NCBI RefSeq assembly: GCF_009392895.1
Contig: NZ_CP045488.1
Span: 1,364,001 to 1,428,000 of the forward strand
Source of the DNA: Natronorubrum aibiense
GTDB lineage: Archaea; Halobacteriota; Halobacteria; Halobacteriales; Natrialbaceae
DNA: 64,000 nucleotides
Direction of reading: 5' to 3'
Within the stretch, counting starts at the first letter, position 1. Each line of letters opens with the position of its first letter. Made by a program: the position numbers and the translations under genes. Below the pieces are notes generated by a model. The model was not told the DNA's origin. It made no database searches and saw only the letters and a program-made list of their open reading frames with translations. Of this stretch, positions 12,287-57,870 are shown one piece after another.

Positions 12287-12297
12287 TACTTCACTGC

Positions 12298-36832: not shown

Positions 36833-36862
36833 GGACTATCGCCTCCGGGGGTCAGTCGGTTG

Positions 36863-38966: not shown

Positions 38967-38974
38967 TGTCGCTC

Positions 38975-39136: not shown

Positions 39137-39228
39137 GTGTATTCTTTGCATTCGTCTCGTACCAGATACCGGACGAGACCGTCTATACCTTTGCGTGTTT
39201 CAGTTCGTTGTGTAAACCGATGCTGTGA

Positions 39229-39836
39229 CGGTTCGAAACCGCGACCGCTGCAGCTGAACGCACGGTCGACGTGCTCGCCGCCGATGACTAGTCGTCGCGC
39301 AGACAACGTCTGCCCGCGAGATCACTGTGCAGCCAGGCACAGCGGTCCCGTTCGACGTCCCCGCCGACGCACCACTGGTTTGTCGACGACCCATATGAGA
39401 GCCATCACTGGGCCCTGGTACACCGCTTACTACAGCTATCAAGGAGTCGAGTACTGGCGCTACACCTTCGACACGGCGGGGACTTATGAGGTGACAGCAG
39501 CCCTCAACGGCGACGAGCAGAACGCTCGATCGAGGTTGACGGTCCACGTGAACCCGACCGGGAATGTAGCGCCAGCTATCGAAGAGGTTCGGCCGGCCAC
39601 CGGCTTGCTTGAGGTCGATCGCGACTCGGAGGCCGCCCTCGAACTGAACGTCATCCATTCGAACAGGAACCTTGACCGCGTGGTCTGATAGCTCGGGCGT
39701 GCGGACCGCATTCTCGGCGTGAGCGATGTCCACGGGTCCGACGCCACCACAGCGCTGATCCTCGATAATTGCTGTCCAATCATTACCTGGATGATCGGCA
39801 CGGACGGGACGATCAGGGAAGAACAGGGGTGGCTGC
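39229..39836 (+). pseudogene. Decayed copy of the Tat lipoprotein gene
   Basis: This stretch aligns with the C-terminal two thirds of the lipoprotein gene (about 34850-35500). Matching blocks include the codons for WHTAYYSHQGAEYWRHTFDT (here WYTAYYSYQGVEYWRYTFDT), EVTAA-GDEQN and LDRVV. Damage includes a TAG near 39289, a deletion before the Thr-His-Trp block, and a TGG-to-TGA change (gtggtctga, 39679-39687). The N-terminus with signal and lipobox is missing. It lies directly against the decayed copy of the small membrane-protein gene. Confidence 0.85.
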
Positions 39837-39841
39837 TTGAC

Positions 39842-40060
39842 CGGCGTCACGACTCGAGAGCGCGTAGAGATCGAGTACACTGAGGACGATAATCGTGAGC
39901 GGAAAGGCCACGTCCGCGAAGGTGGTGTCCTCGAGTCGGAGGGCGGTGACGATGATCGGTTCGGTGATCGTACCGTTGGCGAGGAAGGTGCCAGAACTGA
40001 GAAACACGAGCGCAGCACTACACGTCACTTTCGCGCGGTTGTATCCCGCTCTCGAGTCGC
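39842..40060 (-). pseudogene. Decayed copy of the small three-TM membrane-protein gene
   Basis: The sequence repeats 36514-36720 closely, including CSAALVFLSSGTFL and FADVAFPLTIIVLSVLDLYAL, but similarity stops at about 40060. That removes the first helix and the start codon region. An open frame (39813-40076) remains with a novel N-terminus, so a shortened product is conceivable. Since the conserved part is still open, the decay is mainly loss of the 5' end. Confidence 0.75.
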
Positions 40061-40102
40061 GGTGACTGCGAAGCAATTGACCTGCTGATCCAGTCTAGGT
40101 GT

Positions 40103-40175
40103 ATGATCGATTTGATTGGATTAGATGGGTGGCAGATGGACACCGGCGTATCCAGTGGATCAAGCGGTGATCGAA
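40103..40175 (+). pseudogene. C-terminal fragment of an aglF-like nucleotidyltransferase
   Basis: The bases encode IDLIGLDGWQMDTG and, after a one-base frameshift, YPVDQAVIEDLL and a stop. This matches the C-terminal block IDAIGLDGWRIDVGYPEDRD of the intact aglF-like gene at 60691-61434, and the DNA match is obvious base by base. The rest of the gene is absent. It marks the left border of the glycan island; an inverted, longer fragment of the same gene lies at the right border. Confidence 0.7.
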
Positions 40176-40614
40176 GATCTGCTCTAGCTGACAGTAATAT
40201 AGTCGGCTTGGCCAAGGAAAAAATGTTCTGTGATGCTTTCCCGGCCCTTGGAATTCTTGAAGAGATATCAATGCATATTCTTATTGTGATAGACACTCAC
40301 ACTCGAGTCAATATCCAGTAATTATTTATGTTCGCTATTTATACTATTCTTTGACTGAGATATTCGCTCAATACCAAGAACGGTTCTCTAGACAGCAGCG
40401 GTCGAGACGCCGGACTATGGGTGAGACACAGATTGGATACGCAGACGATGCAGACTCAAGGTCTCCAGTAGGGAGGTTTGATTTGAGGATTTATGCAGGT
40501 TCGAGTATCCATACTGTCGTCCGTCTCGATTGGTGTCTGTCCGACAACAATCCGTGGGTTGTCCTGTGAAACTCCCACCACGACCGTTCCGGTAGAGCGA
40601 GTTCATCACTACAC
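40176..40614. other. Left flank of the glycan gene cluster
   Basis: AT-rich patch at about 40316-40350 (aattatttatgttcgctatttatac) holds likely TATA elements for the cluster, about 250 bases before the first gene. No further gene remnant recognised. Confidence 0.4.
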
Positions 40615-41934
40615 ATGAGCAAGCACGTCTATACTGACCCGAAAGGGAAGGTCGAAGCGGCCACGGTCTGCATTGTCGGACTTGGCTACGTCGGCCTTCC
40701 ACTCGCGTACGAACTCGACGACGAAGGCCATCAGGTATGGGGTTACGACGTCGATCAAAACAAAGTCGACGTCCTCGAAGCCGGCACAGACCCAACTGGT
40801 GACGTCGGCAATGAACAAATCGCAGCCTGTGAAATCGACTTCACAACGGATTCGAGTGCTATCGAACAGGCCGAATATGTGATCGTGGCAGTTCCAACGC
40901 CCGTCGATGATCTCGAGAAACCCGACCTCGGCCTCGTCGAGAGTGCTGGGCGGACGATCGGTGAGCACCTTGAGGAGGATACGACTGTTGTCCTCGAGTC
41001 GACGGTCTACCCGGGTGCGACCCGGGAAGTGTTCGTTCCTGCACTCGAGGAAACGTCCGGATTAGACGCCGGTGAGGACTTCGGCGTCGGCTACTCTCCC
41101 GAGCGAATGGTGCCAGGCGACGATGAACATGGCCTCCGGAACGTCGTCAAGATTGTCAGTGGGCTTACTGATGAAACGCTCGAGGAAGTCGCTGCGTTGT
41201 ACGAGAGCATCGTTGACGCGGGGGTGCATCGAGCACCAACGATGGAGACCGCAGAGGCCGCAAAATGTGTCGAGAACACGCAGCGAGACCTGAATATTGC
41301 GCTGGTCAATGAGCTCGCTGTCGCCTGCGACCACCTGGGTCTGGATACGGAGTCGGTTCTCGAGGCTGCCGGGACAAAGTGGAACTTCCACGACTACCGC
41401 CCCGGACTCGTCGGAGGGCACTGTATTCCTGTGGACCCGTTCTATCTGATCTACGAGACCGAACAGCAGGGCTTTTCGCCGGAACTGATCCAGAAAGCTC
41501 GCGAGGTCAACGAGTACGTTCCGACCCACGTTGCCGATATGACGATCAAGGCGCTCAACGAGAGCGAGAAGGTGCTCGGAAACAGTCGCGTGCTCGTGCT
41601 TGGGTTGACGTACAAGCCTGATGTCGACGACATCCGAACCTCCGCGATCGACGGCGTGATCGACACGCTGCACGAGTTCGATATCGATGTCGTTGGGTTC
41701 GACCCCCATGCCGATGATGAACTCATGCGAGACGAGTTTGGGATTGAGGTTCAGGAGGAACTCGACGTCGAAGGGTTCGACGGACTCATCATCGGGACCC
41801 CACACAGCCAGTTCCACGGACTCAATTTTGGTGATCTGACGTACGATATGCGGTCCAACCCAGTCATGGTTGACGTCGATGGAACGTTTGAAAAGGAAGC
41901 GCTCGAGAATGAATTTACGTACAAGAAACTGTAA
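40615..41934 (+). CDS. wecC: UDP-N-acetyl-D-mannosamine dehydrogenase-type nucleotide-sugar dehydrogenase
   Basis: 439 residues. N-terminal NAD-binding CIVGLGYVGLPLAYELDDEG, central domain, and the catalytic cysteine in VGGHCIPVDPFYLIYETEQ. The C-terminal UDP-binding domain has VLVLGLTYKPDVDDIRTSA. The GGHCIP-DP motif is that of the WecC/CapL branch, which oxidises UDP-ManNAc or UDP-GlcNAc to the uronate, rather than the UDP-glucose dehydrogenase branch (GGSCFPKD, present in aglM here). First gene of the island operon; one-base overlap (TAATG) with the GT2 gene. Confidence 0.93.
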   Translation: MSKHVYTDPKGKVEAATVCIVGLGYVGLPLAYELDDEGHQVWGYDVDQNKVDVLEAGTDPTGDVGNEQIAACEIDFTTDSSAIEQAEYVIVAVPTPVDDLEKPDLGLVESAGRTIGEHLEEDTTVVLESTVYPGATREVFVPALEETSGLDAGEDFGVGYSPERMVPGDDEHGLRNVVKIVSGLTDETLEEVAALYESIVDAGVHRAPTMETAEAAKCVENTQRDLNIALVNELAVACDHLGLDTESVLEAAGTKWNFHDYRPGLVGGHCIPVDPFYLIYETEQQGFSPELIQKAREVNEYVPTHVADMTIKALNESEKVLGNSRVLVLGLTYKPDVDDIRTSAIDGVIDTLHEFDIDVVGFDPHADDELMRDEFGIEVQEELDVEGFDGLIIGTPHSQFHGLNFGDLTYDMRSNPVMVDVDGTFEKEALENEFTYKKL

Positions 41935-43019
41935 TGTATCGGGAACATAGCGTTGGTGTCGTCATTCCAGCATACAACGAAAAAGGGTTCGTCGGTGACG
42001 TGATCCGGGAGATGCCCGACTACGTTGACCGGATGTACCTCATCGATGACTGCTCTACTGACGATACGTGGGATGAGATCCATGAAGCTGCTCGAGAGGA
42101 TGCTGATGGGTTGGAACTCGAGTACACAGGCGGACTCGACGACAGTGGTGAAAAACGAGAAGCAGAGATCGTCGCAGACGGTGGACAAACGATGCTCGAG
42201 CGGCGAGCCATCGTTGAGGACTCGATCGGGCGTGTGGTTCCGATCCAGCACCGCGAGAACCTTGGTGCCGGTGGTGCGATTAAGACAGGCTATTTGGCCG
42301 CACTCAAGGACAAAGTCGATATTGTCCCGACCGTCGACGGCGACGGTCAAATGGATTTGTCTCAGCTGCCGAGGCTGATGGATCCGATTGTCGAAGACGA
42401 GGCCGATTACGCGAAAGGAAACCGATTGCTGTATAAGGAGTTCCGGTCGAATATGCCGCCGTTCCGTTTCTTCGGAAACTCGATCCTCACCTTCCTGACG
42501 AAGATCGCGTCGGGGTATTGGAAAACGATGGATCCCCAGAATGGGTATACGGCAATCTCTCACTATGCGCTGGCGAACGTGGGTATTGAAAATATGTACG
42601 AGTACTATGGCTACTGCAACGATCTCTTGGTGAAACTGAACGCCAAGGGGATGCGCGTGGCCGACGTCGCGATGCCGGCCGTTTACGGCGACGAGGAGTC
42701 GTCAATCGACTACACGACGTATATCCGGAAGGTGTCTGGGATGTTGTTGCGGAATTTCTTCTGGCGGCTGAAGGTGAAGTACCTCGTGCTCGACTTCCAT
42801 CCACTGGCGTTGTTCTACCTGTTCGGTGCTGCGACGACTGGACTGGGGATTGCCGGTAGCTTGTGGTCGCTGTACGCGAAGTTTGCGTTAGGTGACCCGC
42901 TGTTCATACGGGCGTCTGCGAGCCTGCTCCTGTTCTCAGTTGGGAGCATGTTCGTGATGTTCGCGATGCTGTTCGATATGCAGGCGAACGAGAGCCGGGA
43001 GGTGCAGGTCCGTGAATAA
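41934..43019 (+). CDS. GT2-family glycosyltransferase with C-terminal membrane helices
   Basis: 361 residues. The GT-A fold starts VGVVIPAYNEKGFVGDVIRE; the nucleotide-sugar metal motif is VDGDGQMD (about 119-126), with an acceptor-site FRFFGNSILTF later. An unusual 25-residue acidic insertion (ELEYTGGLDDSGEKREAEIV) interrupts the early part of the domain. Two C-terminal helices (about 282-305, 320-345) make it a dolichol-phosphate-sugar-synthase-like, membrane-attached enzyme, as for AglJ/AglD-type archaeal proteins. It would load a sugar on dolichol phosphate. Still GC-normal, unlike the genes that follow. Confidence 0.9.
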   Translation: MYREHSVGVVIPAYNEKGFVGDVIREMPDYVDRMYLIDDCSTDDTWDEIHEAAREDADGLELEYTGGLDDSGEKREAEIVADGGQTMLERRAIVEDSIGRVVPIQHRENLGAGGAIKTGYLAALKDKVDIVPTVDGDGQMDLSQLPRLMDPIVEDEADYAKGNRLLYKEFRSNMPPFRFFGNSILTFLTKIASGYWKTMDPQNGYTAISHYALANVGIENMYEYYGYCNDLLVKLNAKGMRVADVAMPAVYGDEESSIDYTTYIRKVSGMLLRNFFWRLKVKYLVLDFHPLALFYLFGAATTGLGIAGSLWSLYAKFALGDPLFIRASASLLLFSVGSMFVMFAMLFDMQANESREVQVRE

Positions 43020-43042
43020 ATCAAATTAATAGAATTTAATTT

Positions 43043-44170
43043 ATGACTACAGAAAACCTTCGGATTCTCAGAGTCGTACAGAGTACCTATCCAGAGGTCG
43101 TTGGTGGGGTGGGAATTCACGTCCACGAAATGTCTCGGCGGCAATCCGAAATGGGGCATGACGTGACTGTCTTGACAACCGACAACGGTGATCGGTCTTT
43201 GCCCCGAACCGAGCACCGAGATGGATATACACTCGTCCGTCATAAGGAGGTCGCACGACTGATTGACAACTCAATTTTCCCCGGAGTTATTAAATCACTC
43301 TATGAAAGAGCGAATGATTTTGATATAATCCATGCTCATTCACACCTCTATTTCTCTACAAATCTATCAGCCTTGATATCGAAGATCACCGATTCCAATT
43401 TGGTGATCACGAATCATGGATTCTACTCTCAAACGGCTTCGACAAGCATTCAAAAAGTGTACAATAGGACTATTGGAAAAGCGACACTCAATTCAGCGGA
43501 TCGAATCTTCTGTTACACACCACGTGCGAAGAACATTCTTCGAGAACATAACATTGGATCGCCTATCGAGATTATCAGTAATGGAATCAACTGTGAGATC
43601 TTCGCCCCGGAGAACGAGGAGGATGAGACCCAGCAGATACTCTTCGTAGGTAGACTGAAAAATGGAAAAAGGCCGGACGCCCTTATTCGTGGATTTGGAA
43701 AACTTGTCGATGAATATCCAAACTACCAACTAAAAATCGTTGGGGATGGACCGATGCTCCCAGACTTAAAAACACTATGTAATGAGAAGAACATCCAAGA
43801 GATGGTCACGTTCACGGGTGAGCTCTCGTACGACGAAATGCCAGACGTCTATAGACAAAGCGATCTGTTAGTCTTACCAACAAAAACGGAGGCTGCAATC
43901 CCGCGCGTAGTGATGGAAGCGTGGGCATGTAAAACCCCTGCTATTATGCCGAATATTCAGGAGATTGACGCAGAGATATTTAAAAAAGGAGGTATACTCT
44001 GTGATGGCACCCCGAGTGGTATCTACGACTCTGTTCGTCAACTGATCGAAGACGATCAGTTACGCTCTACGCTGGGTAACACGGGCCGGGAGGTCGTCCA
44101 AGAGAAGTACTCGTGGGCGGAAACTGTCGAAAAAACGACTGAGACATATTACGAGGTCGTCAATGAGTGA
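43043..44170 (+). CDS. GT4-family glycosyltransferase
   Basis: 375 residues with GT-B fold. N-terminal VVQSTYPEVVGGVGIHVHEM (acceptor loop), then the C-terminal domain with ILFVGRLKNGKRPDALIRGF and the E-x7-E motif in LPTKTEAAIPRVVMEAWACK. Retaining glycosyltransferase acting at the cytoplasmic face, donor unknown. Base composition drops from here on. It overlaps the DUF354 gene by eight bases. Confidence 0.92.
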   Translation: MTTENLRILRVVQSTYPEVVGGVGIHVHEMSRRQSEMGHDVTVLTTDNGDRSLPRTEHRDGYTLVRHKEVARLIDNSIFPGVIKSLYERANDFDIIHAHSHLYFSTNLSALISKITDSNLVITNHGFYSQTASTSIQKVYNRTIGKATLNSADRIFCYTPRAKNILREHNIGSPIEIISNGINCEIFAPENEEDETQQILFVGRLKNGKRPDALIRGFGKLVDEYPNYQLKIVGDGPMLPDLKTLCNEKNIQEMVTFTGELSYDEMPDVYRQSDLLVLPTKTEAAIPRVVMEAWACKTPAIMPNIQEIDAEIFKKGGILCDGTPSGIYDSVRQLIEDDQLRSTLGNTGREVVQEKYSWAETVEKTTETYYEVVNE

Positions 44171-45278
44171 CGTATTATTCACGATTCAACATCCAGCGGA
44201 CGTTCATCTCTTCCGAAATGCAATCCAGCAGCTATCGGAGCAACACGAGGTGCACGTATTTGTCCGAGAAAAAGACGTCAATATTGAACTGCTGAATCGA
44301 TATGACATCAAGCACGAAGTTCTCACCACCAGCACGCCGGGAATCGTAGGTACGGTCAAGACGCAGTTGATCTATGAGTACAAGCTCTTTCGCCGGGCGA
44401 TGGAGATTCAACCCGATGTAATGTGTGCTGACGGCGGGATTGCAATCAGCCATATCTCATCCGTCTTGGACTCCACGAGTCTCGTGTTTACCGACACGGA
44501 ACACGTGGTTGATAGCGCTCTCGATCGACGACACCTCATCTACAACTTCGCAGATGAAGTCTACACGCCGGACTGTTACTGGCTTGATCTCGGAGCGAAT
44601 CACTTCCAATACTCGGGCTATCATGAATTAGCATATCTGCATCCAGATCGATTCGAACCAGATCCGTCGATTCGACAACAGTTCGAGATCGACGACGACG
44701 ACGTGTCGATCGCTCTGTTGCGACTCGTTTCGTGGGAAGCATTTCACGACCGAGGTAATAGCGGTCTCTCCGAGATTGGGACGGTGATCGACTATCTCGA
44801 GGATAGCGGAATGGAGGTCTTCATCTCATCTGAAGGTGAGATCCCCGGCCAGTACGCACACCTCGAAGTTGATCTACCGGTCGATGAGATCCACCATCTC
44901 ATGTCCGAAGCGGATCTCTTCGTCGGAGAAAGTTCGACAATGGCCTCCGAATGCGCTATGTTAGGAACGCCAGCAGTCTTCATCTCGTCCCTTCAGTTGG
45001 GATACCTTGAGGAACTCGAGCACGAATATGATCTTGTCGTCAATCTCACCCCGAACGAAGAACAGTATCTCCTCAATGAGGTAGAAACGATTCTGGAAAA
45101 AGACGACCAATACTGGGAAACGCAGCGACAGCGACTTCTAGAAGATAAGATCGATACATCAAATTACATCGTGGAACGCATATCTCGGCATCTCAGCACC
45201 GATCATTCGACAAAGACGGACAGCATCTCGGCAGCATCGAAGAACTCTAGCGGACGCCAAGAGAATAACATAGAATGA
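44163..45278 (+). CDS. DUF354 family protein (GT-B-like)
   Basis: 371 residues. N-terminal VLFTIQHPADVHLFRNAIQQ and the central MCADGGIAISHISSVLDSTS and FTDTEHV blocks define DUF354, a family of glycosyltransferase-B-like proteins found in archaeal polysaccharide loci and related to UDP-GlcNAc 2-epimerases/MurG. The C-terminal half keeps LFVGESSTMASECAMLGTPA, which corresponds to the nucleotide-binding segment. A transferase or epimerase role on a UDP-sugar is likely. It overlaps both neighbours (8 and 4 bases), indicating coupled translation. Confidence 0.87.
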   Translation: MSDVLFTIQHPADVHLFRNAIQQLSEQHEVHVFVREKDVNIELLNRYDIKHEVLTTSTPGIVGTVKTQLIYEYKLFRRAMEIQPDVMCADGGIAISHISSVLDSTSLVFTDTEHVVDSALDRRHLIYNFADEVYTPDCYWLDLGANHFQYSGYHELAYLHPDRFEPDPSIRQQFEIDDDDVSIALLRLVSWEAFHDRGNSGLSEIGTVIDYLEDSGMEVFISSEGEIPGQYAHLEVDLPVDEIHHLMSEADLFVGESSTMASECAMLGTPAVFISSLQLGYLEELEHEYDLVVNLTPNEEQYLLNEVETILEKDDQYWETQRQRLLEDKIDTSNYIVERISRHLSTDHSTKTDSISAASKNSSGRQENNIE

Positions 45279-46507
45279 CCAACAGAATTCAACAGTCGAT
45301 CGACGATCGCGACAGCATGAAAGACAAAAACGTACTGGTGATCGCTCACCGGTACAGCCACTTTACGAAAGAACAGGTCGACGAATTGGCCGAGCGGGTG
45401 AACGAAATACACGTTTATGTACGCTACAATCGGCTCACTGATCTGAACAAGATCATCGAGACGGAGACACTGAAACAGTATGGAACGCACGATAAGGTTG
45501 TGGATTCCACGCCCGAGAACGTCACTGTTCATACGACTCCCTTAACCTACCTTCCGATCGACACCTGGTATCGGTATCTCGGGAAACATCACTACGCCGC
45601 CGTTCGACGGCAGGTCGCGAAGAATCCGGTTGATTTCGATCTCGTTCACTCTCATTTCGCCTGGACTGCTGGGTACGCAGGGGCCAAACTGGGTGAGGAA
45701 TACGACATCCCCAGCGTTCTAACGATCCACGAAGACGTTGATCGGCTCAACGAAGAACTTGCCTGGGACAACAGCGACCTAGAGTGGACGCTTCGAAACT
45801 CCGATGCAATCATTCGCGTGAACGAACGAGACTGTGAACGGCTGTCTTCGTTTAACGATACCGTCTACTCGATCCCGAACGGGTACGATCGCGATCGATT
45901 CCCATTGCTTGAGGCGGAAGAAGCGAGGGGCGAGCTTGATCTGCCGCACAATGCGTCGATCATCTTCTCGCTGGGAACTCTCATTCCTCGTAAGCGACCG
46001 AAGGCGTTGATCAGAGCTGTCTCCCAACTCGAGACAGACAATGACCTCATCTGTGCGATTGCAGGGCGAGGTGAACAACGCGAAGAAGTCGAGCAGTTAG
46101 CCCAGGAGGTGGGCGAGGATGTGGATATCCGAATTCTCGGCTACATCTCTGATGAAGAGTTAGCTGCCTGGATGAACGCATGTGATATCTTCGCTCTCGC
46201 AAGTTCGTCAGAGGGCAATCCGACGGTCATGTTTGAAGCGTTAGGATGTGGGAAGCCGTACGTCGGCACGAACGTCGGCGGCGTTGATGAAATTATCACG
46301 TCCGACGAGTATGGACTACACTGTCCACCGAATTCAGAAGAGGCCCTGATCGATATCCTACAAACTGGTCTTCAGACCGACTGGGACCGCGACGCAATCC
46401 TAGAGTACTCGGAGCAGTTCACTTGGGAACAAATCTCTGATCGGGTATTCCAAGTGTACAAATCCCTCTGGGATCAATCAACAGAACCCACCCTTGTTCC
46501 ACAATAA
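45275..46507 (+). CDS. GT4-family glycosyltransferase
   Basis: 410 residues. The GT-B fold has an N-terminal domain with VHSHFAWTAGYAGAKL, and a C-terminal domain with IIFSLGTLIPRKRPKALIRA and the E-x7-E motif SSEGNPTVMFEALGCGKPYV. An alternative start at 45317 (ATG, MKDKNVLVIAHRYSHF) would remove 14 residues and fits the fold start better, but the four-base overlap with the upstream stop supports the first ATG. Retaining transferase in the island operon. Confidence 0.92.
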   Translation: MTNRIQQSIDDRDSMKDKNVLVIAHRYSHFTKEQVDELAERVNEIHVYVRYNRLTDLNKIIETETLKQYGTHDKVVDSTPENVTVHTTPLTYLPIDTWYRYLGKHHYAAVRRQVAKNPVDFDLVHSHFAWTAGYAGAKLGEEYDIPSVLTIHEDVDRLNEELAWDNSDLEWTLRNSDAIIRVNERDCERLSSFNDTVYSIPNGYDRDRFPLLEAEEARGELDLPHNASIIFSLGTLIPRKRPKALIRAVSQLETDNDLICAIAGRGEQREEVEQLAQEVGEDVDIRILGYISDEELAAWMNACDIFALASSSEGNPTVMFEALGCGKPYVGTNVGGVDEIITSDEYGLHCPPNSEEALIDILQTGLQTDWDRDAILEYSEQFTWEQISDRVFQVYKSLWDQSTEPTLVPQ

Positions 46508-46517
46508 GTGACTATCG

Positions 46518-47687
46518 ATGGCTAATATACTCATCATTTCACCAGGACATGCCCCGGATCGCATCAGCCGACAACCGTGGGCGTATCTCCAAGGTCTCGC
46601 CGATCAACTCAGCGAGCGCGATCACAACGTGTCCGTCATCGGTGATGGACCACAATCGGCGGAGAGTTCCAAGACGATATCTACGAAGTTTCAATTCGTC
46701 GAATCAGTCCGTGATCCAGCCGCTATTGCTGAGGCTGCGAGAGCTTTCGATCCCGACGTCTGCTTGTGGTCACTCGCACCGATTGCATCCCTCTATCTGA
46801 CCCAGCGTGTACCGAAGATTGCAGACACGATGGTTGCAGTTGTGCCAGGACCACTCTATTCGCCACGGGACATTGCTTCGCAGCTTTCCCGTCAAGACTT
46901 CTCGAAACTCCCATCATATGCATCACTCGTTGCGAGTTCTTGTGTGCCGCAAGCATGGTTCTCGTACTTTTTGCGGTCGAATTTCGATTTCACCGTCGCA
47001 CCGACAACAACGATCGTCGACAAGGTATCTTTGTGGGGATACCCTCGAGAGAAGGCATTGCACGTCCCTCACGGACTTGATAGTGGTATTCTTACGAAAT
47101 TATCTGACGAGGAGTTTCGCGACGAGATTCCGTCACCGCCGGACGGAGACTACGTCGTGAATTTCGGGCCGCCAAGGCCGATTCGCGGCGCCCAGGATTT
47201 CGTCGAGGCTGTGTTGATGCTGCGGGAGGCCGGCCACGACGTGACCGGCGTCATGCTCGCGCGTATCGATGACGACGACGATCGCGACCTCCTCGAGGAG
47301 ATCAAGGGGGATCTTGTACGACGCGGCCACCAGGGGGCAATCCTTATCACAGACGCATATCTGACACCACATGAGCTGAAAACGTACATCTGCGGTGCGA
47401 CGGCAGCCGTGCTTCCGTACCGCATAGTGCAGTCGACGGTTCCGGTTTCGATCATCGAAGGACTCGGGCTTGGCTGTCCAGTTATCACAACCGATATCGC
47501 CGGCGCTCGTGAGCTCGCTCCGTCGGCTACTCTAACTGTAAGTTCGGGCAGCGTTGAAGAGCTTGTTGCAGCAATCGGACGTCATCTAAGCGGCGGCCAT
47601 ACCACTACTGAGGATCAGTTAACTGCTCATCTTCCGACCTGGGATGCCGCAGTAGGCCAGTTGGAGGAGGAAATATCGAAACAATGA
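46518..47687 (+). CDS. GT4-like glycosyltransferase
   Basis: 389 residues. N-terminal ILIISPGHAPDRISRQPWAY and LQGLADQLSERDHNVSVIGD form the acceptor domain. The C-terminal domain has YVVNFGPPRPIRGAQDFVEA (the donor-site loop beginning with NFGPP instead of the usual VGR) and a QSTVPVSIIEGLGLGCPVIT stretch where the E-x7-E pattern is reduced to one glutamate. So it belongs to GT4 but with an altered donor site. Ten bases after the previous gene; end of the tight glycosyltransferase run. Confidence 0.87.
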   Translation: MANILIISPGHAPDRISRQPWAYLQGLADQLSERDHNVSVIGDGPQSAESSKTISTKFQFVESVRDPAAIAEAARAFDPDVCLWSLAPIASLYLTQRVPKIADTMVAVVPGPLYSPRDIASQLSRQDFSKLPSYASLVASSCVPQAWFSYFLRSNFDFTVAPTTTIVDKVSLWGYPREKALHVPHGLDSGILTKLSDEEFRDEIPSPPDGDYVVNFGPPRPIRGAQDFVEAVLMLREAGHDVTGVMLARIDDDDDRDLLEEIKGDLVRRGHQGAILITDAYLTPHELKTYICGATAAVLPYRIVQSTVPVSIIEGLGLGCPVITTDIAGARELAPSATLTVSSGSVEELVAAIGRHLSGGHTTTEDQLTAHLPTWDAAVGQLEEEISKQ

Positions 47688-47770
47688 TGAAAAGAATCGA
47701 AGAGCATAGTAGGAGCATTTGCTCTAGCCATCGGTTTGTATAAGTACGTAGAAAAATACATTTCTCTCGA

Positions 47771-48463
47771 ATGAACGTACTAAAACCATCCGTACCTACT
47801 CTTCCTCCCGACCTCGAGATCGTCGGCTTCCTTGGGTCTGATGGAGTGGGAACGACGACGCACGCGGAACACGCTTCCCAATTTTTCGAATCAAGAGGCC
47901 TGAGAACCCACACGGAGTGGATGAGATTCAACCATCGTCTTTCACTCCCGGTCTTAGGACTCGGACGACTACTAGGGAAAACGCCCGAGTATCGTGATAA
48001 AAACGGGAATACGCTCCGCGCACATCACTTCGAGGATTTGAGCCTCTTGGCCGCCACCTATCAAAAGGTACTTCCTATTGACCAACGCCTGATGGTGAAA
48101 CAGAAGTTCGAATCCGTCCCTGATGATGCCGACGCGCTCATTTGTGACCGATTCATTCTGGACGGATTAGTCGATCTCGTTGTCGCCACGAAGGATATTT
48201 CGCTCTTAGAGAACTCTACTGCGGACCAGTTCTGGGAGTTAGTCCCTTCTCAAGCGACGATTATCGGTCTCGACTGTGATCCAGAGACGATCGCAGCACG
48301 TCGTCCTGATGTTGCACCTGACCCTTTCTTGGAACTCCGAACAAAAGTTTATAGACGCCTCTTTGAGAAGGATCGAATTGATGTGGTCGATACATCACAG
48401 CCAATAGAGGACGCAAGAGAAGATGTTGTAAATATATTTGAAGGAAATCATGGAAATTCATAA
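47771..48463 (+). CDS. Thymidylate-kinase-like P-loop protein with altered Walker A
   Basis: 230 residues. The opening EIVGFLGSDGVGTTTHAEHA aligns with the TMP-kinase P-loop (GxDGSGKST), but the invariant lysine is threonine (Thr28). The rest keeps the kinase layout: ICDRFILDGLVDLV (DR motif), LDCDPETIAARRPD (lid arginine region) and a final Asp-Val-Val-Asp-Thr strand. Its length is near normal for TMP kinases. A housekeeping dTMP kinase is unlikely here; homologs in surface-glycan islands are thought to act on a sugar, lipid or polyprenol. The change could abolish ATP binding. Overlaps the next gene. Confidence 0.75.
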   Translation: MNVLKPSVPTLPPDLEIVGFLGSDGVGTTTHAEHASQFFESRGLRTHTEWMRFNHRLSLPVLGLGRLLGKTPEYRDKNGNTLRAHHFEDLSLLAATYQKVLPIDQRLMVKQKFESVPDDADALICDRFILDGLVDLVVATKDISLLENSTADQFWELVPSQATIIGLDCDPETIAARRPDVAPDPFLELRTKVYRRLFEKDRIDVVDTSQPIEDAREDVVNIFEGNHGNS

Positions 48464-49076
48464 AAAACTATACCACGAGTTAGTCAGGAGTGACCGTCTT
48501 CCGATGCCATTGCGGGGAAGTATCAAACTCACAAGCCATTGGGTCTTCCAAGGGACTCGTCGGATGGATACTTTTGAGCGTGCGTTCAAACTCGGCTGTA
48601 CTGCTGTTTTTGCCTTCGTATTCTCTCGCAGACTAGATCGGACTGTAACTGCCTTATTACTCGGTCACAGTCTGAACTTCTTGCTAAATTCTCATGCCGT
48701 TTCTGCGCTTAGATCAATGAATCTCTCGTTCTATACGGAATGGGATGAATTTGACGCGTATGCAACCAATCTTTTGGATAATCTCACAGAGCGTAGCTGG
48801 GTGAAAACTATTTATGTTACTGGAAGTCTCAACGATAATCGTAATGAATGGCAACCTGGATCGGATCTAGATGTTATTGTTATCAGAAAACCAGGAATTA
48901 CAAACGGTATTAAGGCCGTGTTTGGCGCTCTTCTAGTCAGATTCTCCGCAACCGTCAATCTCTTTCCACTAGATATTTACTTTTTTGATAAAGAAGGAAC
49001 ACTTGAAGATCGCCTAATAGATAAACAGGAGAAATTGATTCCGTATAGTAATCAAAACAATAGAAATAAACGTTGA
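48450..49076 (+). CDS. Membrane-associated minimal nucleotidyltransferase
   Basis: 208 residues from the ATG at 48450; an upstream TTG (48438) is less likely. Overlap with the kinase-like gene is 14 bases. Two hydrophobic stretches (about 46-60 and 66-84) precede a pol-beta-type nucleotidyltransferase core: VTGSLNDNRNEWQPGSDLDV (GS-x10-SDLD, first two metal Asp) and FPLDIYFFDKE (third Asp). The C-terminus is basic. The family transfers a nucleotide to a protein, antibiotic or small molecule. Paired with the kinase-like protein, it may modify an island lipid or glycan. Confidence 0.72.
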   Translation: MEIHKKLYHELVRSDRLPMPLRGSIKLTSHWVFQGTRRMDTFERAFKLGCTAVFAFVFSRRLDRTVTALLLGHSLNFLLNSHAVSALRSMNLSFYTEWDEFDAYATNLLDNLTERSWVKTIYVTGSLNDNRNEWQPGSDLDVIVIRKPGITNGIKAVFGALLVRFSATVNLFPLDIYFFDKEGTLEDRLIDKQEKLIPYSNQNNRNKR

Positions 49077-49243
49077 ATTAGGAATATATTCATAGAATAT
49101 GTAACAGATGTATGAAATACAGAAAATAACATATGATACTGGTTGCGGATTTCGTGTGATCCGTAGGCTATTTAATTACGCATGTATACTATGAAAATAA
49201 GAATCGATAATTAATAAAGCCTAGTCGATTGAGGTCTCTCTGT

Positions 49244-50707
49244 ATGGGATTAGCTTCTCAACTAGGAGACCGTTTCAAAACGGCATTCCTATCTGAGATC
49301 GTTGGGCTCGTAGCAGGAACTATTTTAACTGTTCTTCTTGCACGCGTACTTGATCCAGATTCGTACGGTTTGTTGTTTCTTGCAATTTCAATTTTTACTG
49401 TGGCTAAACTTTTTAGTTCATTTGGAATTCCTAAGTCAGCTAGCCGATATCTTTCGGAATATAAAGAAAAAGACCCTAGCCAAATACCTCACATTTTACG
49501 CGAATCTCTTCTTATGAATTTACTAGTAATAACAGTAGTGGTTTTAATACTAATGAGCTTTAATAGTCGAATTGCTGGAATAATAGGAAATAATGATCTA
49601 TCTGAGTTCCTATTTTTTGGCTCTGGATTTATTCTCTTTGCTACCTTATTCACTTATGTTCGTCTCTCACTGCAAGGTTTGGAACATATACAAACTGCCT
49701 CTTTCCTTGATGCCATGAATAAATCAGGACGAGCACTATTTGCAATAGGCTTAGCAGTTCTTGGCTATGGTGCTCTTGGTGCATTAATAGGATATATTAT
49801 AAGTTATACTATAGTATCCTTCATTGGAATATTATATTTATACTTTCATTTTTATAGTGGTATTAGCAGTTCTAATATAGAAGACGGACTCCGTCATAAA
49901 ATAGCTAAGTATTCACTTCCACTTGCCATTACCCAGTCCGCGCATAGTCTTGATCATCAAGTAGACAGGATACTCATAGGTATCTTTGTAGGACCTGCTG
50001 GAGTTGCTTTTTATACACTTGGAAAACAGATTGTTCAATTTATTGAAACTCCTATGGCAGCACTTGGATTTACGCTCTCTCCAGCATACAGTTCTCAAAG
50101 AGCAAAAGGAAATACTGAAACGGCAGCTCGTATTTACGAAACAGCAATCTCTCAGGGATTATTATTATATATCCCAGCTGCTACAGGCGTAATTCTCTTA
50201 GCAGAACCCGGAATCACAGTGCTATTTGGAGATGAGTATCAAGGTGCTGCACCTGTCATACAAATTTTAGCCATATTTGTCGTCTTAAAATCAATTACTA
50301 CATTAACAAGCGATGGATTAGATTTCCTAGGTAGAGCACGTGAACGGGCGATAATTAAGGGAGTAACCGCGGTATTGAACGTTTTGCTGAATATCGTATT
50401 AATTCCAATTATGGGTGTTGTTGGAGCTGCGATAGCCACAGTTATCACTTATTCTATATATACATTTGGGAATGTGTTTATAATTCATAAGGAACTAAAT
50501 ATAAATACCTCGATGATGATTAAATACTCAGTTTCTGCAGTAATAATCTCTCTAATGATGGCCCTATCAATCTTGACCTTCTTCGACCTAACTGCAGAAA
50601 TCCCAGTATTAGTTTCGGCTGTATTATTCGGCGCGACTATCTGGACAGTAATAGTGATTCCAACTGGATTAATAAAGCTGGAACAAATAAAAGAAGCAGT
50701 AATTTAG
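49244..50707 (+). CDS. Wzx-type oligosaccharide flippase (MOP superfamily)
   Basis: 487 residues from the ATG at 49244; a TTG at 49229 is in frame. It has 12-14 membrane helices. The N-terminal pattern LGDRFKTAFLSEIVGLVAG and LLARVLDPDSYGLLFLAISI is that of polysaccharide-biosynthesis flippases, with a later LGRARERAIIKGVTAVLNVL block at helix 10-11. It probably moves the lipid-linked glycan across the membrane, like AglR in Haloferax. Very AT-rich with little GC-third-position bias, unlike a typical haloarchaeal gene, so clearly foreign in style. Confidence 0.92.
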   Translation: MGLASQLGDRFKTAFLSEIVGLVAGTILTVLLARVLDPDSYGLLFLAISIFTVAKLFSSFGIPKSASRYLSEYKEKDPSQIPHILRESLLMNLLVITVVVLILMSFNSRIAGIIGNNDLSEFLFFGSGFILFATLFTYVRLSLQGLEHIQTASFLDAMNKSGRALFAIGLAVLGYGALGALIGYIISYTIVSFIGILYLYFHFYSGISSSNIEDGLRHKIAKYSLPLAITQSAHSLDHQVDRILIGIFVGPAGVAFYTLGKQIVQFIETPMAALGFTLSPAYSSQRAKGNTETAARIYETAISQGLLLYIPAATGVILLAEPGITVLFGDEYQGAAPVIQILAIFVVLKSITTLTSDGLDFLGRARERAIIKGVTAVLNVLLNIVLIPIMGVVGAAIATVITYSIYTFGNVFIIHKELNINTSMMIKYSVSAVIISLMMALSILTFFDLTAEIPVLVSAVLFGATIWTVIVIPTGLIKLEQIKEAVI

Positions 50708-50727
50708 CTGAGGGTGTCATACAATTC

Positions 50728-51000
50728 ATCTCATTGCGTTCGTCCCAGGGAGCCGATCACGAACGAAGTCACCGAGCTTACTGTCGTACTCACGGACTCG
50801 GCGGTTGATTGCCGTAATCGAGGGCATGGACGTGAAGCCGTCGCCGTGGGCGACGGCATCACGATCGCTGAGCGAGGTGGCGAGTTCAGCAATCTGAAGC
50901 GAGATGTCTTCTTGATAGATGCGCTAGCCGTCGAATTCGATGAGATCTTCGAGTGGACGGAAGTAGGTAGGATCGTCGTCGGTAGTGTTTTGTCTTGGGC
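50728..51000 (-). pseudogene. Decayed GC-rich gene fragment, family not identified
   Basis: The minus strand encodes a readable, GC-normal stretch: DDDPTYFRPLEDLIEFDG, an in-frame TAG (near 50926), then RIYQEDISLQIAELATSLSD, followed by about 40 more residues to a stop at 50728. It looks like the C-terminal part of an ordinary haloarchaeal protein broken by a stop codon. I cannot assign a family. It interrupts the AT-rich island between the flippase and the first sulfatase-like gene, so it may mark an old insertion or deletion boundary. Confidence 0.4.
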
Positions 51001-51181
51001 GATGCTAACTGCGAACCGCACGTTGATTTCGGCGTGCATGGGGCACCTCGGGTAGGTACCAAAGGTGACCCCCTTTCACAGGAGTCAGTTATTGCTCTAG
51101 ACGAGTTTGAGACACGACCTATATGTTGGACCTCTCACTAAACGAAACAATTAGAACCCCTCAAACCGATGTTGTTTCTAC

Positions 51182-52561
51182 ATGAGATGGGATATTAGAA
51201 TGATGAATACTGTGACACCTAGTTTTCTAAAACCATATGCTGAATGGTGTTATCAAAAAACGAGAAATCAATATAAAAACATTAAAAATAACGTAGATCA
51301 TAATAAGCGAATTTCAAAAGTACCAGAGATAAATTTAGAGTCAAAAGACATTGTATTTATAACGGTTGACTGCTTGAGAAATGATCGCATTTCGAGACAT
51401 AATGACCGAGAAACAACCCCATTTTTAAATTCATCGGCAAACTATTCTGAGGGTGTCAGTGCATCATCTTGGACATACAGTTCAGTTCCTTCTTTACTAA
51501 CTGGATTGTATCCGCATAATCATGGTGCAGTATTTGATGTTGATTACCGTAATTATTTATCAGATGATTCATTAAGTTCAGTCCGTTCTGATGTTTATAC
51601 ACTTCCAGAACTCTTAGAGACTGCAGGTTATCGAACAGCATTCACAACAGGTATCACTACTGCACAAATACCACTTCATGGCCGATTTGGGTCCACAATA
51701 ATTAAAAATGACTCGGATTGCAACCAAATGTTTGAATATGTGAAAGATTGGTGGGAAAAGAATACTTTTGCGAATGGACGATTTGCATATCTCCAGCTCG
51801 CTGATCTGCACACTCCGCTTCATGAACCAGATAAACAATGGTTCAATGGCCCACTTTCCCTTGGTAACTTTGACTATGTCGATGGAGACATAGATAGTTC
51901 TGATTTTAGAGAATATCGTGAAAATCGATTCCGAGCATATGATAACCTTCTTAGAGCCATTGACTCTTCTATTGAATCTTTCGTAAATTGGTTAGATTCC
52001 CGAAGAGAATTGAAGGACACATTGATTATCGTTACAAGTGACCATGGGGAAGAACACTGGGAATGGACCAAGTTCGAAAAATCATCATTTAATGATCCAA
52101 GAGACCAATACGGAGTTGGACATGGTCATGCACTTGTTCCTCCGGTAACAGATGTTCCTATCTATACTTTAGGAAACATACCCGAATCATCTGAGACTCA
52201 GAATTCAACCATTGATATAGTTCCAACAGTTTTGGAAATGTTAGGATATAATAACGAATTGGATTATCAATTTGACGGTGAAAGTTGGATTGAGCCAACA
52301 GTATCGGATAGACGATTTCTCAGCGAAGAGACTGCTTATGGTCATAATCAACTAGCAGTTATTTCAGAGAAAGACCAGTTCATTTATATTCCATCAACTG
52401 AAGAAAGCTATCTCATAGATCGTGAATCCCAGTCGGTGGTTGATGACTTCAACAGTCAAGAGTATATGACCCACCTTCCTAAACGCTTCAAGACAGGAGA
52501 TTCAGTGAGTATTGATGGAGAAACAGAAGATCAGCTAGCCGCACTTGGTTATCTCGAATAG
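51182..52561 (+). CDS. Sulfatase-superfamily hydrolase/transferase
   Basis: 459 residues. The alkaline-phosphatase-like core begins at about residue 55 (IVFITVDCLRNDR with metal ligand Asp63). The nucleophile segment SASSWTYSSVPSLLTGLYPH has Thr98 where classical sulfatases have Cys or Ser (CxPSR-x4-TG). Metal ligands recur in TSDHGEEHWE. There is no signal peptide or helix, so it acts in the cytoplasm. Thr nucleophiles are known in the phosphoethanolamine/phosphoglycerol transferase branch. It may transfer or remove a phospho- or sulfo-group on the glycan. AT-rich. Confidence 0.85.
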   Translation: MRWDIRMMNTVTPSFLKPYAEWCYQKTRNQYKNIKNNVDHNKRISKVPEINLESKDIVFITVDCLRNDRISRHNDRETTPFLNSSANYSEGVSASSWTYSSVPSLLTGLYPHNHGAVFDVDYRNYLSDDSLSSVRSDVYTLPELLETAGYRTAFTTGITTAQIPLHGRFGSTIIKNDSDCNQMFEYVKDWWEKNTFANGRFAYLQLADLHTPLHEPDKQWFNGPLSLGNFDYVDGDIDSSDFREYRENRFRAYDNLLRAIDSSIESFVNWLDSRRELKDTLIIVTSDHGEEHWEWTKFEKSSFNDPRDQYGVGHGHALVPPVTDVPIYTLGNIPESSETQNSTIDIVPTVLEMLGYNNELDYQFDGESWIEPTVSDRRFLSEETAYGHNQLAVISEKDQFIYIPSTEESYLIDRESQSVVDDFNSQEYMTHLPKRFKTGDSVSIDGETEDQLAALGYLE

Positions 52562-52641
52562 GTTATTGAAACTACCTGTATTCTTATTGGTTGAACCTGT
52601 TGTTTATGGGGAATTTTTAGATATTCTGATAAATTCTCGTA

Positions 52642-54510
52642 CTAGTTACTTGTGATTAATTTGGCTTCGTCATTATTATAGACCACATCTCCAGCTGGTT
52701 TCGGCAGCGGTCCGTGCACTCCAAATGTGCGGCTATCATATCTCATATAATAAGCATTACTGTCCGTAGTCACATATGATCTATGGATATAAATACGATC
52801 AATATTCGGATTCAATTCCCCCCCATCAGGATAGTACGTATATATTTCTGCTTTATCATCATAGTGTCGATCAATAATCCGTACTGCTAGATTATCTCCA
52901 ACGATTGTTCTATCACCTTGATATTCGATCGCAGATGTATATGCATGATTCTCTGCACTTGTCATTGCATATCGTTCTGCGCCTGGAGCATCAAAAACGG
53001 GGTCATCAAGAGCCCCCATAAAGTTGAATGACATGAAAACAACTACTGTAAGAACACCTATAATGAATAAACCAGTTTTGATGTACTCTGGGAATACACG
53101 TGGAACTGTAGATATAGCAGCATATACGCCCACCGCCGCAAAAATACTGAGAATAATATAGATGAATATAAACCATCTACGTGGAATCAAGAAATTTAGT
53201 CCGACTATTGGCCCTCCAAATGAAAACGCGAAAAGCGTTCCCAATGCCATTCCTAATGGAATCGCGATCATCAACGATCGTCGAGTATTAGCCCTTAGCC
53301 ACGTCAACCCGCCAAGTATCCCCAGGCCAGTGAGCAATCCAACCCCGATTGTATGTTCTATTGTAAGTGCATTTGACCCTCCAAGAACAGCATTTTCGAA
53401 ATCAGGGAGAACAGCGCTCCTTGAACCTGCATTCTGTATATTTGCAACAAAACGTATAACTAGAGTTTGTAGGAAGGACAGATCACTGTTAATACCGAAT
53501 CGTGTTACCAGCCAATCCAAAATGATTAGGCATCCTACTATTAATGTGACATAGCTGGTTCGGATAGGTGAATAGTCCGTAATAGCCAAGTATGATATGT
53601 AAAATACGAATATAGTAACAAATGTAATAAAAAACGATATCTGATGTGAAAACATAAGTGCGATCACAGAACTGATCACCAGCATCAAAAATCGATCTGA
53701 GTTAGTTTGCGTAAATTGAAGGAAAGAGTAGATTGTCATAGTAAAGAAGATAGTTCCCAGAGTCGTTGAGACCGGCATGACCGACCAAGAGATTGTATAA
53801 TCTGAGATGCTGTATAAAAACCCAGCAAGCAATCCAACCTGGCTAGACCAATAGCGAACAGTAATTGAATAAACGAGAACTGTTGGCACGAGTACTAAAG
53901 CAACACCGCTTATAACAAATGCAGTAGCTCTGATCGGGAGATTGAGAATATGGCTCCCCGTTGCTGTCAATATATGGTAAAATGGGGCAAACCAATACTG
54001 TGATGGGGCAAGTGGAGCAAGTGTGCCGGCTGAAGCAATCTCTCCGGCTACTCGATTATGATAGAGTGAGTCAATTCCAATTTGAATGGCACTTGAATAA
54101 TATATCTGTACTCGGTGGAGTATACCAACTATACATAACCCTCCCAGGCTTATAATATCTGATGAATCGCTTAGAAACAACAAGAGGACGACACCATACA
54201 GGGCTATAATACTGCCATGGATCGCTGTTGTTCGTGTGTAGCCTGCATCTTGAAAGAGTACTATTGATACTGCAATAAGCAAAAACAGGCAAGTTATTAC
54301 AAGACGTACAGGAATTCTAATAGAAATAGATAATTCAGGACGGTCAGAAGATATAAAATAAACTACTGCTGCTAGGGTAATTGCAGGGGAAAGGACAATT
54401 GTATATGGATTTGTTATTTTAGTGGAAATAATCATTCCAACTAATCCAATAGAAAAGATACCTATTGCTGGGAGTTGTGTCTGGATGACTTTTTCCAGAC
54501 TTACATTCAT
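52642..54510 (-). CDS. Large multi-TM membrane protein (glycan polymerase / GT-C-like)
   Basis: 622 residues with about 13-14 hydrophobic helices over residues 10-500 and a soluble C-terminal domain (about 505-622) rich in Tyr and Asp. An extracytoplasmic loop after the third or fourth helix carries polar residues (HNRVAGEIASAGTLAPLAPS), as in GT-C glycosyltransferases and Wzy polymerases; a strict catalytic motif is not visible. It lies downstream of the second sulfatase-like gene, 42 bases apart and likely co-transcribed. Role in assembly of the island glycan is inferred from context. Confidence 0.75.
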   Translation of the reverse strand: MNVSLEKVIQTQLPAIGIFSIGLVGMIISTKITNPYTIVLSPAITLAAVVYFISSDRPELSISIRIPVRLVITCLFLLIAVSIVLFQDAGYTRTTAIHGSIIALYGVVLLLFLSDSSDIISLGGLCIVGILHRVQIYYSSAIQIGIDSLYHNRVAGEIASAGTLAPLAPSQYWFAPFYHILTATGSHILNLPIRATAFVISGVALVLVPTVLVYSITVRYWSSQVGLLAGFLYSISDYTISWSVMPVSTTLGTIFFTMTIYSFLQFTQTNSDRFLMLVISSVIALMFSHQISFFITFVTIFVFYISYLAITDYSPIRTSYVTLIVGCLIILDWLVTRFGINSDLSFLQTLVIRFVANIQNAGSRSAVLPDFENAVLGGSNALTIEHTIGVGLLTGLGILGGLTWLRANTRRSLMIAIPLGMALGTLFAFSFGGPIVGLNFLIPRRWFIFIYIILSIFAAVGVYAAISTVPRVFPEYIKTGLFIIGVLTVVVFMSFNFMGALDDPVFDAPGAERYAMTSAENHAYTSAIEYQGDRTIVGDNLAVRIIDRHYDDKAEIYTYYPDGGELNPNIDRIYIHRSYVTTDSNAYYMRYDSRTFGVHGPLPKPAGDVVYNNDEAKLITSN

Positions 54511-54552
54511 ACCATTATATATACGATTACTATGGTATATACTCTCGGTTTT

Positions 54553-55944
54553 TCACTGGAGATAACCTAAATCTCGAAGTTGATCTTTCATTTCAATGTT
54601 AAATTCAGCAGTTTGTTGATTACCAATTGGCTTTCCATACTCCATCATCCAATCCTCGTATTCTTCTTCTAATTCCTTTATGACCTCTGGGTTAGAAGTA
54701 GATACATCAGTGTCTTCATCTGGGAGTGAATATAATTCGGTTGTTTCATCCGATACCTGGAACTTCCACTCTTTAGTTCTCAGACTCGTAAGGTCTTCCC
54801 TATGGAATTGACTATCTGGAAAATTTGAATTATAGCTTGTAATCTCATTTAGGAGTGATTCAATATGAGTACCTCCTTCTTGAGTTATTGCTATTTCCCG
54901 TGGTTGTTTTCGAATGTCTAACCCGATTGGTACGGAATGATCTACCCCACATTCTGAACAGAGTATCTGCATCAGGTCTGCAGGCTGTACAAGTGAATCA
55001 CCCAACGGCTCATTGAGGCCATTCACAATTAGCGGAACATTTGTCACAGGATTGTTTATATCAATTACATGTGATAGTAATCCTTTCTCCCCGAAGTATT
55101 CCCCATGGTCTGCGGTTATAACTATGATTGGATTATCTAGCATTTGATGGGCGTACTCAACAAGTTCTCCAACCAAGTGATCAACATATGCCACACAAGT
55201 GTCGTACATTACACGGAGAGCTTTCCATTCTTCAGTAGTATACATATCCGATTCCGATATTTTTTCATGCAGATTGATGGCCATATCTAAACTAAGGTCA
55301 ATAGCATCATCTATCTCAAACGGCAGTTCGTCATCAAAATAGTCCCGCCAAGCAAGTGGGGGAACGTATGCAAAATGTGTATCTCCATGATGAAGATACA
55401 AAAACAGCGGATCATCGTCTTTGGCCTTTTCTTTGATATGATCTTTAGCAATAATATTGATTGGATAGCCTGTACATTGTTGATTAGTATCGAGAGTGAA
55501 TCCACCAGAGTGATTCCGGAAATTGGAGGCCCAACGGATAAGACCCTTGAAACCGACTTCCTTGGTTAAGTTTGATTTTGATAAGTAATGGAAATGATCA
55601 AATCCACGGTCAAGTCCTGTCTGAGGACTGAATTGTGCCACTGGAGATATGCCTGCTGTTTGGTAACCTGCTTCACGAAAAGCTTCAGGGATGGTCTCTA
55701 TTTCATTGGGCAAAGCTGAATCAGAATCCCATGTTTGGTGCGCTGATGGGGGTAAGCCAGTAAGAATTGATGCACTGGCGGGACGGGTCCAGATTGCGTG
55801 TGAGTGACAATATGGAGACCAATCTCCTTCATTAGCAATCTTAGACAGATTTGGCGTTGTCTCCCGAGGAGCCTCCCCTACAGAGACATGGTCTTGCCTA
55901 AGACTTTCCAAAGTGATCCAAATAACATCTCGTTTAGTCATCAA
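54553..55944 (-). CDS. Second sulfatase-superfamily hydrolase/transferase
   Basis: 463 residues. The fold starts DVIWITLESLRQDH, with Glu13 at the position of the usual first metal Asp. The nucleophile stretch SHAIWTRPASASILTG has Thr53 in place of Cys/Ser. Further metal motif TADHGEYFGEKG near the middle. The C-terminus ends in DQLRDLGYL, and the other sulfatase-like protein ends similarly (DQLAALGYLE), so the two are related despite modest similarity. No signal peptide. Probably acts on cytoplasmic glycan intermediates or lipids. Confidence 0.85.
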   Translation of the reverse strand: MMTKRDVIWITLESLRQDHVSVGEAPRETTPNLSKIANEGDWSPYCHSHAIWTRPASASILTGLPPSAHQTWDSDSALPNEIETIPEAFREAGYQTAGISPVAQFSPQTGLDRGFDHFHYLSKSNLTKEVGFKGLIRWASNFRNHSGGFTLDTNQQCTGYPINIIAKDHIKEKAKDDDPLFLYLHHGDTHFAYVPPLAWRDYFDDELPFEIDDAIDLSLDMAINLHEKISESDMYTTEEWKALRVMYDTCVAYVDHLVGELVEYAHQMLDNPIIVITADHGEYFGEKGLLSHVIDINNPVTNVPLIVNGLNEPLGDSLVQPADLMQILCSECGVDHSVPIGLDIRKQPREIAITQEGGTHIESLLNEITSYNSNFPDSQFHREDLTSLRTKEWKFQVSDETTELYSLPDEDTDVSTSNPEVIKELEEEYEDWMMEYGKPIGNQQTAEFNIEMKDQLRDLGYLQ

Positions 55945-56129
55945 TCAATATTATCATCTTACTATTATAAACGTGTTCAATCACGATATTCGGATATGGT
56001 AGCCAGATAGCTTCACTTAATAATTATATTGAATGCGTATACCAAGCAGCCCGTTCAATTGACTGTTATGAACGCCTTTGTTTTTGTAGTCGCTCTGTAG
56101 TTTGATTACGGTTCCTGGGATAACCAACG

Positions 56130-56632
56130 CCGATCCATCATCCATTCAGACCGATCGTGTCGATCGTCCGCCTACTTGGATCAACGAGTCAATCACCTCG
56201 CTGAGTTCGTACTCGCCGTGATCGCTCGGTTGGATGAGGTGCAGGCGTGGTAGATCACCGGTGTGAATGTGTAGAAGCCGGTCATCACGAGGTTTGATGG
56301 CGGGTCACCGGACTTCTTGACAACGTCCGTGCTCTCGCCGAACTTGTTGGTGTCACAGACGCCGTAGCGCGGCGCTTCGTCCCACGGTACTTCCTCGACG
56401 AGGTATACGGCGTCCGCGCGCTTCTCATAGGAATCAGCGTGGATATTCGGAAGTTCTCACGAGGAAAACAGCCTACTGAGAAAACCACACGACGAGAAAA
56501 ACTATGAACTAATCTGCTGATCCCTATCAGCCTGCCGGCGGACGACTCCTCATGCTTTGCCTGGAAGGTTTTGTCGCCGAGGATCAGCATGAAGTCGCCG
56601 ATGTGCTCCTTGACGGGGATGAGCGTGTCGAG
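56130..56632 (-). pseudogene. Decayed copy of the aglF-like nucleotidyltransferase gene
   Basis: This stretch aligns on the minus strand with about 60770-61160, the C-terminal two thirds of the aglF-like gene (codons for VMTGFYTF, SRYGVCDTNKYGEI-like and FMLILGDN are recognisable). It is broken by stop codons and small indels, and by about 95 unrelated bases inserted near 56437-56530. The 5' third is missing beyond 56632, where the IS630 flank begins. It is the right-hand partner of the small fragment at 40103. Confidence 0.82.
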
Positions 56633-56664
56633 CGACTCGCCTCAAGACCTACGCGCGCAACCTA

Positions 56665-57868: not shown

Positions 57869-57870
57869 TA

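Follow-up and report, generated by a model that had tools for sequence, protein, structure and literature searches.

Two pieces of aglF lie in inverted orientation near the two ends of a glycan gene island in the haloarchaeon Natronorubrum aibiense. Are they the segments through which the island is exchanged, or do they have another origin? The window analyzed here is a stretch of 64,000 nucleotides of contig NZ_CP045488.1, and all positions refer to it. A preliminary description had placed a C-terminal aglF fragment on the plus strand (f1) and a longer fragment on the minus strand (f2) at the island borders and had taken them for homologous segments that allow the whole cluster to be swapped. 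The locus reads, in order, L, L', f1, core, f2, insertions, epimerase-nucleotidyltransferase, intact aglF, and aglM (Table 1).

Table 1. Features of the glycan island and its borders in the window (~, approximate limits)
Feature	Position	Strand	Content	Evidence or remark
L, resident left border	34843..36958		lipoprotein gene, 160-aa membrane gene, 111-aa membrane gene	
Interval L to L'	36959..39217		contains gene 38193-38978 (-)	
L', decayed second left border	39218..40023		34843-35502 fused directly to 36507-36689	78% and 89% identity to L
f1	~40046..40187	+	decayed C-terminal aglF fragment	tblastn; NCBIfam, AglF only; limits by eye
Dehydrogenase-GT2 pair	40615..43019	+	nucleotide-sugar dehydrogenase, GT2 glycosyltransferase	
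Island core	43043..55944		GT4 genes, DUF354, flippase, two sulfatase-like genes, 622-aa membrane protein	
f2	~56084..56662	-	decayed aglF copy, ~aa 78-235	blastn and tree
MITE-like insertion in f2	56424..56530		~107 bp, 15-bp inverted ends	inverted repeat and congener copies
IS630-type insertion (our assignment)	56663..57870	+	TA target duplication, matching terminal GTGTTCTGTCAA, transposase in two frames	
Truncated IS4-family transposase gene	57871..58549	-		NCBIfam NF033592, below cut-off
NAD epimerase, nucleotidyltransferase	58621..60672	-, +	next to aglF-aglM in Natrinema hispanicum too	blastn
Intact aglF	60691..61434	-		right edge of segment replaced relative to N. thiooxidans; 3' half without congener signal
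aglM (UDP-glucose dehydrogenase)	61546..62832	+	divergent from aglF	NCBIfam NF041297, 740.3 bits, cut-off 670

Identity and decay of the two fragments

Alignment of f2 to the intact aglF of the window with blastn gave one block of 76.8% identity over 56425-56118 (E = 9e-61) and a second of 80.7% over 56616-56533 (E = 3e-16). The N-terminus is missing, with about the first 77 residues. AglF is the best NCBIfam model for f2, with 82 bits versus 28 bits for the next family and a cut-off of 400. Thus, blastn and NCBIfam agree that f2 is a minus-strand aglF fragment, longer than f1, as had been described, although its span is somewhat wider than the 56130-56632 given earlier. In a tree of aglF genes of its type, built from the mapped blocks, f2 was placed with the Natronorubrum-type aglF genes, including the intact aglF of the window (UFBoot only 75), on a terminal branch of 0.38 versus a median of 0.08. 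Forcing f2 whole into the aglF alignment gave a branch of 1.2, which is meaningless because of the MITE, and the mapped-block tree was used instead. Copies of this ~107-bp MITE-like element occur at 86-89% identity in N. thiooxidans and two other congeners. The broken end of f2 abuts the element that we take to be IS630-type, and beyond it lies the truncated IS4-family transposase gene, presumably ISH8-like; all three insertions belong to the right edge region of the island.

The fragment f1 directly follows L' (39218-40023) and holds ~aa 184 to the end of aglF with a small deletion and one frameshift. It matches aa 188-222 of AglF at 63% protein identity (tblastn, E = 2e-7), and AglF is its sole NCBIfam match (E = 0.0013; 18 bits, far under the 400-bit cut-off, as it is a fragment). 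By eye, the frameshift follows DGWQMDTG, and the shifted frame reads YPVDQAVIEDLL up to a stop at ~40187. The plus-strand C-terminal fragment of the preliminary description is therefore real but longer than the 40103-40175 assigned to it; it is too short for placement in a tree. At the DNA level, f1 scores 30 and the best of 1000 shuffles reached 27, and for so short a sequence chance similarity, or a piece of an unrelated nucleotidyltransferase, might account for such a score. The protein-level and profile evidence refutes chance for f2 and makes it very unlikely for f1, so we consider this explanation of the pair extremely improbable. Alignment to the intact gene and NCBIfam both identify the fragments as aglF, as first proposed.

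The intact gene reaches the AglF family NF041313 with 442.5 bits (cut-off 400). Its coordinates and the orientations of the gene and both fragments were given correctly before, as was its location to the right of the island, but it is not the only intact one. The genome has three intact AglF-type genes: the one in Table 1, a second ~11 kb to its right (95%), and a third in another part of the genome (73%). The protein of the second copy (L010:8053-8793; G000:C1:1436062-1436787) is 95% identical to that of the window's gene, and this copy adjoins aglM-like fragments, a flippase, and a sulfatase-like gene, which make up another, partly broken aglF-aglM edge.

Island borders and the recombination signal

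The nearest relative among the genomes compared is N. thiooxidans HArc-T (G008), and a border-gene search across the genus found that only this species shares the borders. By blastn, collinearity of the two genomes extends on the left up to 36958 (82-83% over L) and resumes on the right at 60688, where the intact aglF has its stop codon. Between the same outer borders N. thiooxidans carries an unrelated gene set of ~27 kb, with island genes that are unrelated or distantly alike and none above ~42% identity. Because the borders are collinear and the genes between them are unrelated, the whole cluster differs between the same borders: the locus is a replacement-type island whose content differs between N. 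aibiense and N. thiooxidans, and the latter provides the different island between common borders for which a search had been suggested. The segment replaced relative to N. thiooxidans, 36959-60687, includes both f1 and f2, and the placement of the fragments just outside the island does not hold. Elsewhere in the window, ~19 kb (6566-25372) between two blocks collinear with N. thiooxidans have no counterpart at that place there.

Relative to Natrinema hispanicum, whose contigs are short and whose blocks were matched separately, conserved DNA stops at ~43015 and restarts at ~58655. The common blocks are the dehydrogenase-GT2 pair and epimerase-nucleotidyltransferase-aglF-aglM. Nucleotide identity of the dehydrogenase-GT2 pair is 89.0% to N. 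hispanicum (L149), 80.5% to L068, and 71.4% to the congener N. halalkaliphilum; that of the epimerase-nucleotidyltransferase pair to N. hispanicum (L060) is 74.2% over 1977 bp (blastn). Neither the comparison with N. thiooxidans nor that with N. hispanicum gave a homology junction at f1 or f2. Within the left pair, the dehydrogenase (40615-41934) scores 200.8 bits as AglM (NF041297, cut-off 670) and is assigned only to the nucleotide sugar dehydrogenase subfamily, and the GT2 gene (41934-43019) scores 54.5 bits as AglJ (TIGR04182, cut-off 325).

In the core, GC is 35-45% from ~48 to 56 kb, and the low-GC core stops at ~56.1 kb, the 3' end of f2. Two core proteins that were tested had no relative among 125 genomes of the family. 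Judged by annotation only, the genes of the island (those for glycosyltransferases and a flippase, the sulfatase-like genes, and the sugar-nucleotide genes) serve exposed surface structures.

On the left, L is marked by the repeat families D1, D2, D5-D7, and D10, and translation of L' shows frameshifts and stops. The relation of L and L' relative to N. thiooxidans is nearly unresolved, at 54 versus 38 informative sites. The gene in the interval between them encodes a SAM hydroxide adenosyltransferase C-terminal domain (Pfam PF20257). Just right of L, 393 bp (36963-37355) match N. thiooxidans at 87% in a different place (G008:C35:48751-49143); the rest of the interval has no N. thiooxidans match. 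With L and L' on the left and f2 and the intact aglF on the right, the borders are nested on both sides.

If clusters are swapped by homologous recombination in the flanks, the border genes may carry its trace. In the intact aglF, the proportion of synonymous differences between the window and N. thiooxidans runs 0.33, 0.26, 0.47, and 0.58 toward the island. Among comparable aglF pairs, which are not independent of one another, a rise at least as large occurs in 1.4% of one set and 0.9% of a second. Over the 5' half the two congeners are mutually closest (92.8%), and in the 3' half they share 86.5% and are no nearer to each other than to other genera. When N. hispanicum is added as the third sequence, the 5' block has site patterns of 56/17/21 and the 3' half of 25/26/22, and MaxChi puts a break near 61060 (permutation p = 0.03, a weak signal). 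The remaining aglM is also star-like (56/49/49). Since aglM too is without congener signal, the mosaic of aglF may stem from gene exchange in general and not from a single crossover at the border. The left border genes have dS of 0.28-0.53, which is not clearly raised. These sequence patterns modestly favor the view that the intact aglF at the right border has undergone homologous recombination.

aglF at island edges in other haloarchaea

In three genomes (loci L066, L068, and L085) the dehydrogenase-GT2 pair is preceded by an intact aglF of the same strand, at the position that f1 has in the window. The 428-bp spacer from f1 to the dehydrogenase at 40615 has no homology with L066 or L068. In L199 an mb111-like gene is divergent from aglF with a decayed aglF piece alongside, resembling the L'-f1 neighborhood. 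The same stretch (L199:8825-11271) comprises the decayed piece, an intact aglF, and the adjacent divergent mb111-like gene, beside a flippase. For f2, a precedent comes from the plasmid plAArc-T1-2-L, on which one cluster contains the dehydrogenase-GT2 genes, a variable core, and then aglF (-) followed by aglM (+), so that aglF faces back at the far end, in the position of f2. Divergent aglF-aglM genes occur in 25 of 80 named loci. In G009 the dehydrogenase-GT2 pair is kept, and the other end retains the nucleotidyltransferase and a piece of aglM. From such places, the aglF genes of relatives could readily have supplied f1 and f2, which would once have been edge genes.

Partial aglF copies are rare. 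Only ~10 were found outside intact genes at 180 surveyed aglF loci, and thus such fragments are no usual mark of island exchange. They are of mixed kinds (C-terminal, middle, and N-terminal) and lie on either side of aglF; a C-terminal aglF scar as a general mark of exchange was not borne out as a rule in these loci. Four Halorubrum loci (L084:10001-11860, L088:10001-12089, L094:9929-11993, and L098:10001-12096) have an intact aglF followed by a two-gene module on the opposite strand; ~1.0-1.2 kb downstream of the intact gene, and on its strand, lies a C-terminal aglF fragment. The module in L088, L094, and L098 encodes a DUF7342 protein (tested for L088) and a 146-aa protein, and that in L084 encodes 194-aa and 113-aa proteins of no confident family. 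In Natronococcus amylolyticus, C-terminal aglF-like pieces (L152:9585-9794 and 19055-19375; 47% and 78%) flank the dehydrogenase-GT2 pair.

Origin of the fragments and relation to known islands

We favor the explanation, with a probability of about 0.6 for the whole account, that an earlier version of the island had one aglF at its left edge and another at its right edge, and that f1 and f2 are what is left of these two genes, no longer functional. Arrival or rearrangement of islands with their own aglF edge genes would have happened here on at least two occasions. With three intact copies kept in the genome, the inner aglF copies would then have become redundant and decayed by frameshifts, truncation, and MITE and IS insertions. 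Whole clusters would be exchanged by homologous recombination, and this would take place in conserved genes of the flanks, among them the intact aglF, rather than in f1 or f2; the data give this step modest support. Counting against this account, no genome was found that has the window's island together with an intact aglF at the place of f1 or f2. In addition, the several insertion sequences on the right side mean that illegitimate events may explain part of the layout.

The preliminary description instead made f1 and f2 themselves the homologous border segments for whole-cluster exchange. Both are indeed aglF fragments near the two ends of the core with their 3' ends inward, and N. thiooxidans does have other content between shared outer borders. 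The homology boundaries, however, are at 36958/60688 with N. thiooxidans and ~43016/~58655 with N. hispanicum, neither of them at f1 or f2, and the mosaic aglF is the intact one (60691-61434). Moreover, if f1 and f2, being inverted, recombined within one chromosome, the island would be inverted, not exchanged. This role for the fragments is thus improbable, and the intact aglF is a better candidate for the crossover site; the proposal of cluster exchange stands for the locus as such, and the mosaic signal in that gene gives modest support to the part played by a sugar-nucleotide gene. Transposons could also have moved, duplicated, or deleted parts of aglF and the left border without any island exchange, and the IS630-type element, the truncated IS4-family transposase gene, and the MITE do lie in or beside f2. 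Because these insertions are within f2 or at its broken end, they are later than the f2 copy. No insertion sequence was noticed beside f1 or L', and replacement of the island between shared borders is observed independently, which leaves this origin unlikely.

Scarcely more probable is a landing-site origin, in which each incoming module restores a complete aglF toward aglM while the old C-terminal part stays behind as a scar on the far side (f2, f1). The four Halorubrum loci, with two different kinds of module, fit this pattern, and f2, beyond the epimerase-nucleotidyltransferase pair, stands in the same relation to the intact aglF as the Halorubrum fragments do to theirs. Yet three of those four cases share one module and may be a single event, fragments in the 180 loci are few and mixed, the junction points differ, and no integrase or repeated core sequence was identified. 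It is likewise unlikely that modules in haloarchaeal glycan islands in general have landed repeatedly in the 3' part of aglF, with an intact aglF restored next to aglM and C-terminal scars left on the far side; if they had, such scars would record the history of glycan switching.

Among aquatic microbes, one archaeon included, replacement flexible genomic islands have been described (Lopez-Perez et al. 2014, PMC4033161). In those islands synonymous differences peak at the border gene, which was taken as a mark of homologous recombination; a near-identical island in a divergent lineage is the strongest sign of recent exchange but is not needed for every island. Like them, the window has different surface-structure clusters at one place between conserved flanks. 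Unlike them, it was compared between species rather than strains, no identical island was found in a second lineage when two core proteins were compared with 125 family genomes, among them few strains of this species, and one border has IS and MITE insertions and decayed edge genes. A synonymous peak is seen in the right-border aglF, and values in the left border genes are not clearly raised. The locus thus fits a replacement flexible genomic island in place and content, and its border features are mixed.

Among haloarchaea, the cell-wall island GI1 of Haloquadratum walsbyi varies by homologous recombination and mobile elements, according to the part of that account used here (PMC4535781). It is a surface island like that of the window, with other genes in another genus, and that part reports no aglF relics such as those found here. 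The agl N-glycosylation clusters of Haloferax differ between strains, and their genes move horizontally (PMC5867893). AglF and AglM belong to one pathway there and here; unlike in the Haloferax clusters, aglF and aglM of the window lie at the island edge, and the left dehydrogenase and GT2 genes miss the AglM and AglJ cut-offs. The wider phenomenon is therefore already known; the window adds a fresh instance, and the fragments in it are ordinary relics. Haloarchaeal surface glycans have been discussed as influencing virus sensitivity and mating (PMC5867893). With a replaced segment, nested decayed edges, and a candidate crossover in the intact aglF at one locus, it can be asked which conserved genes serve to swap glycan clusters.
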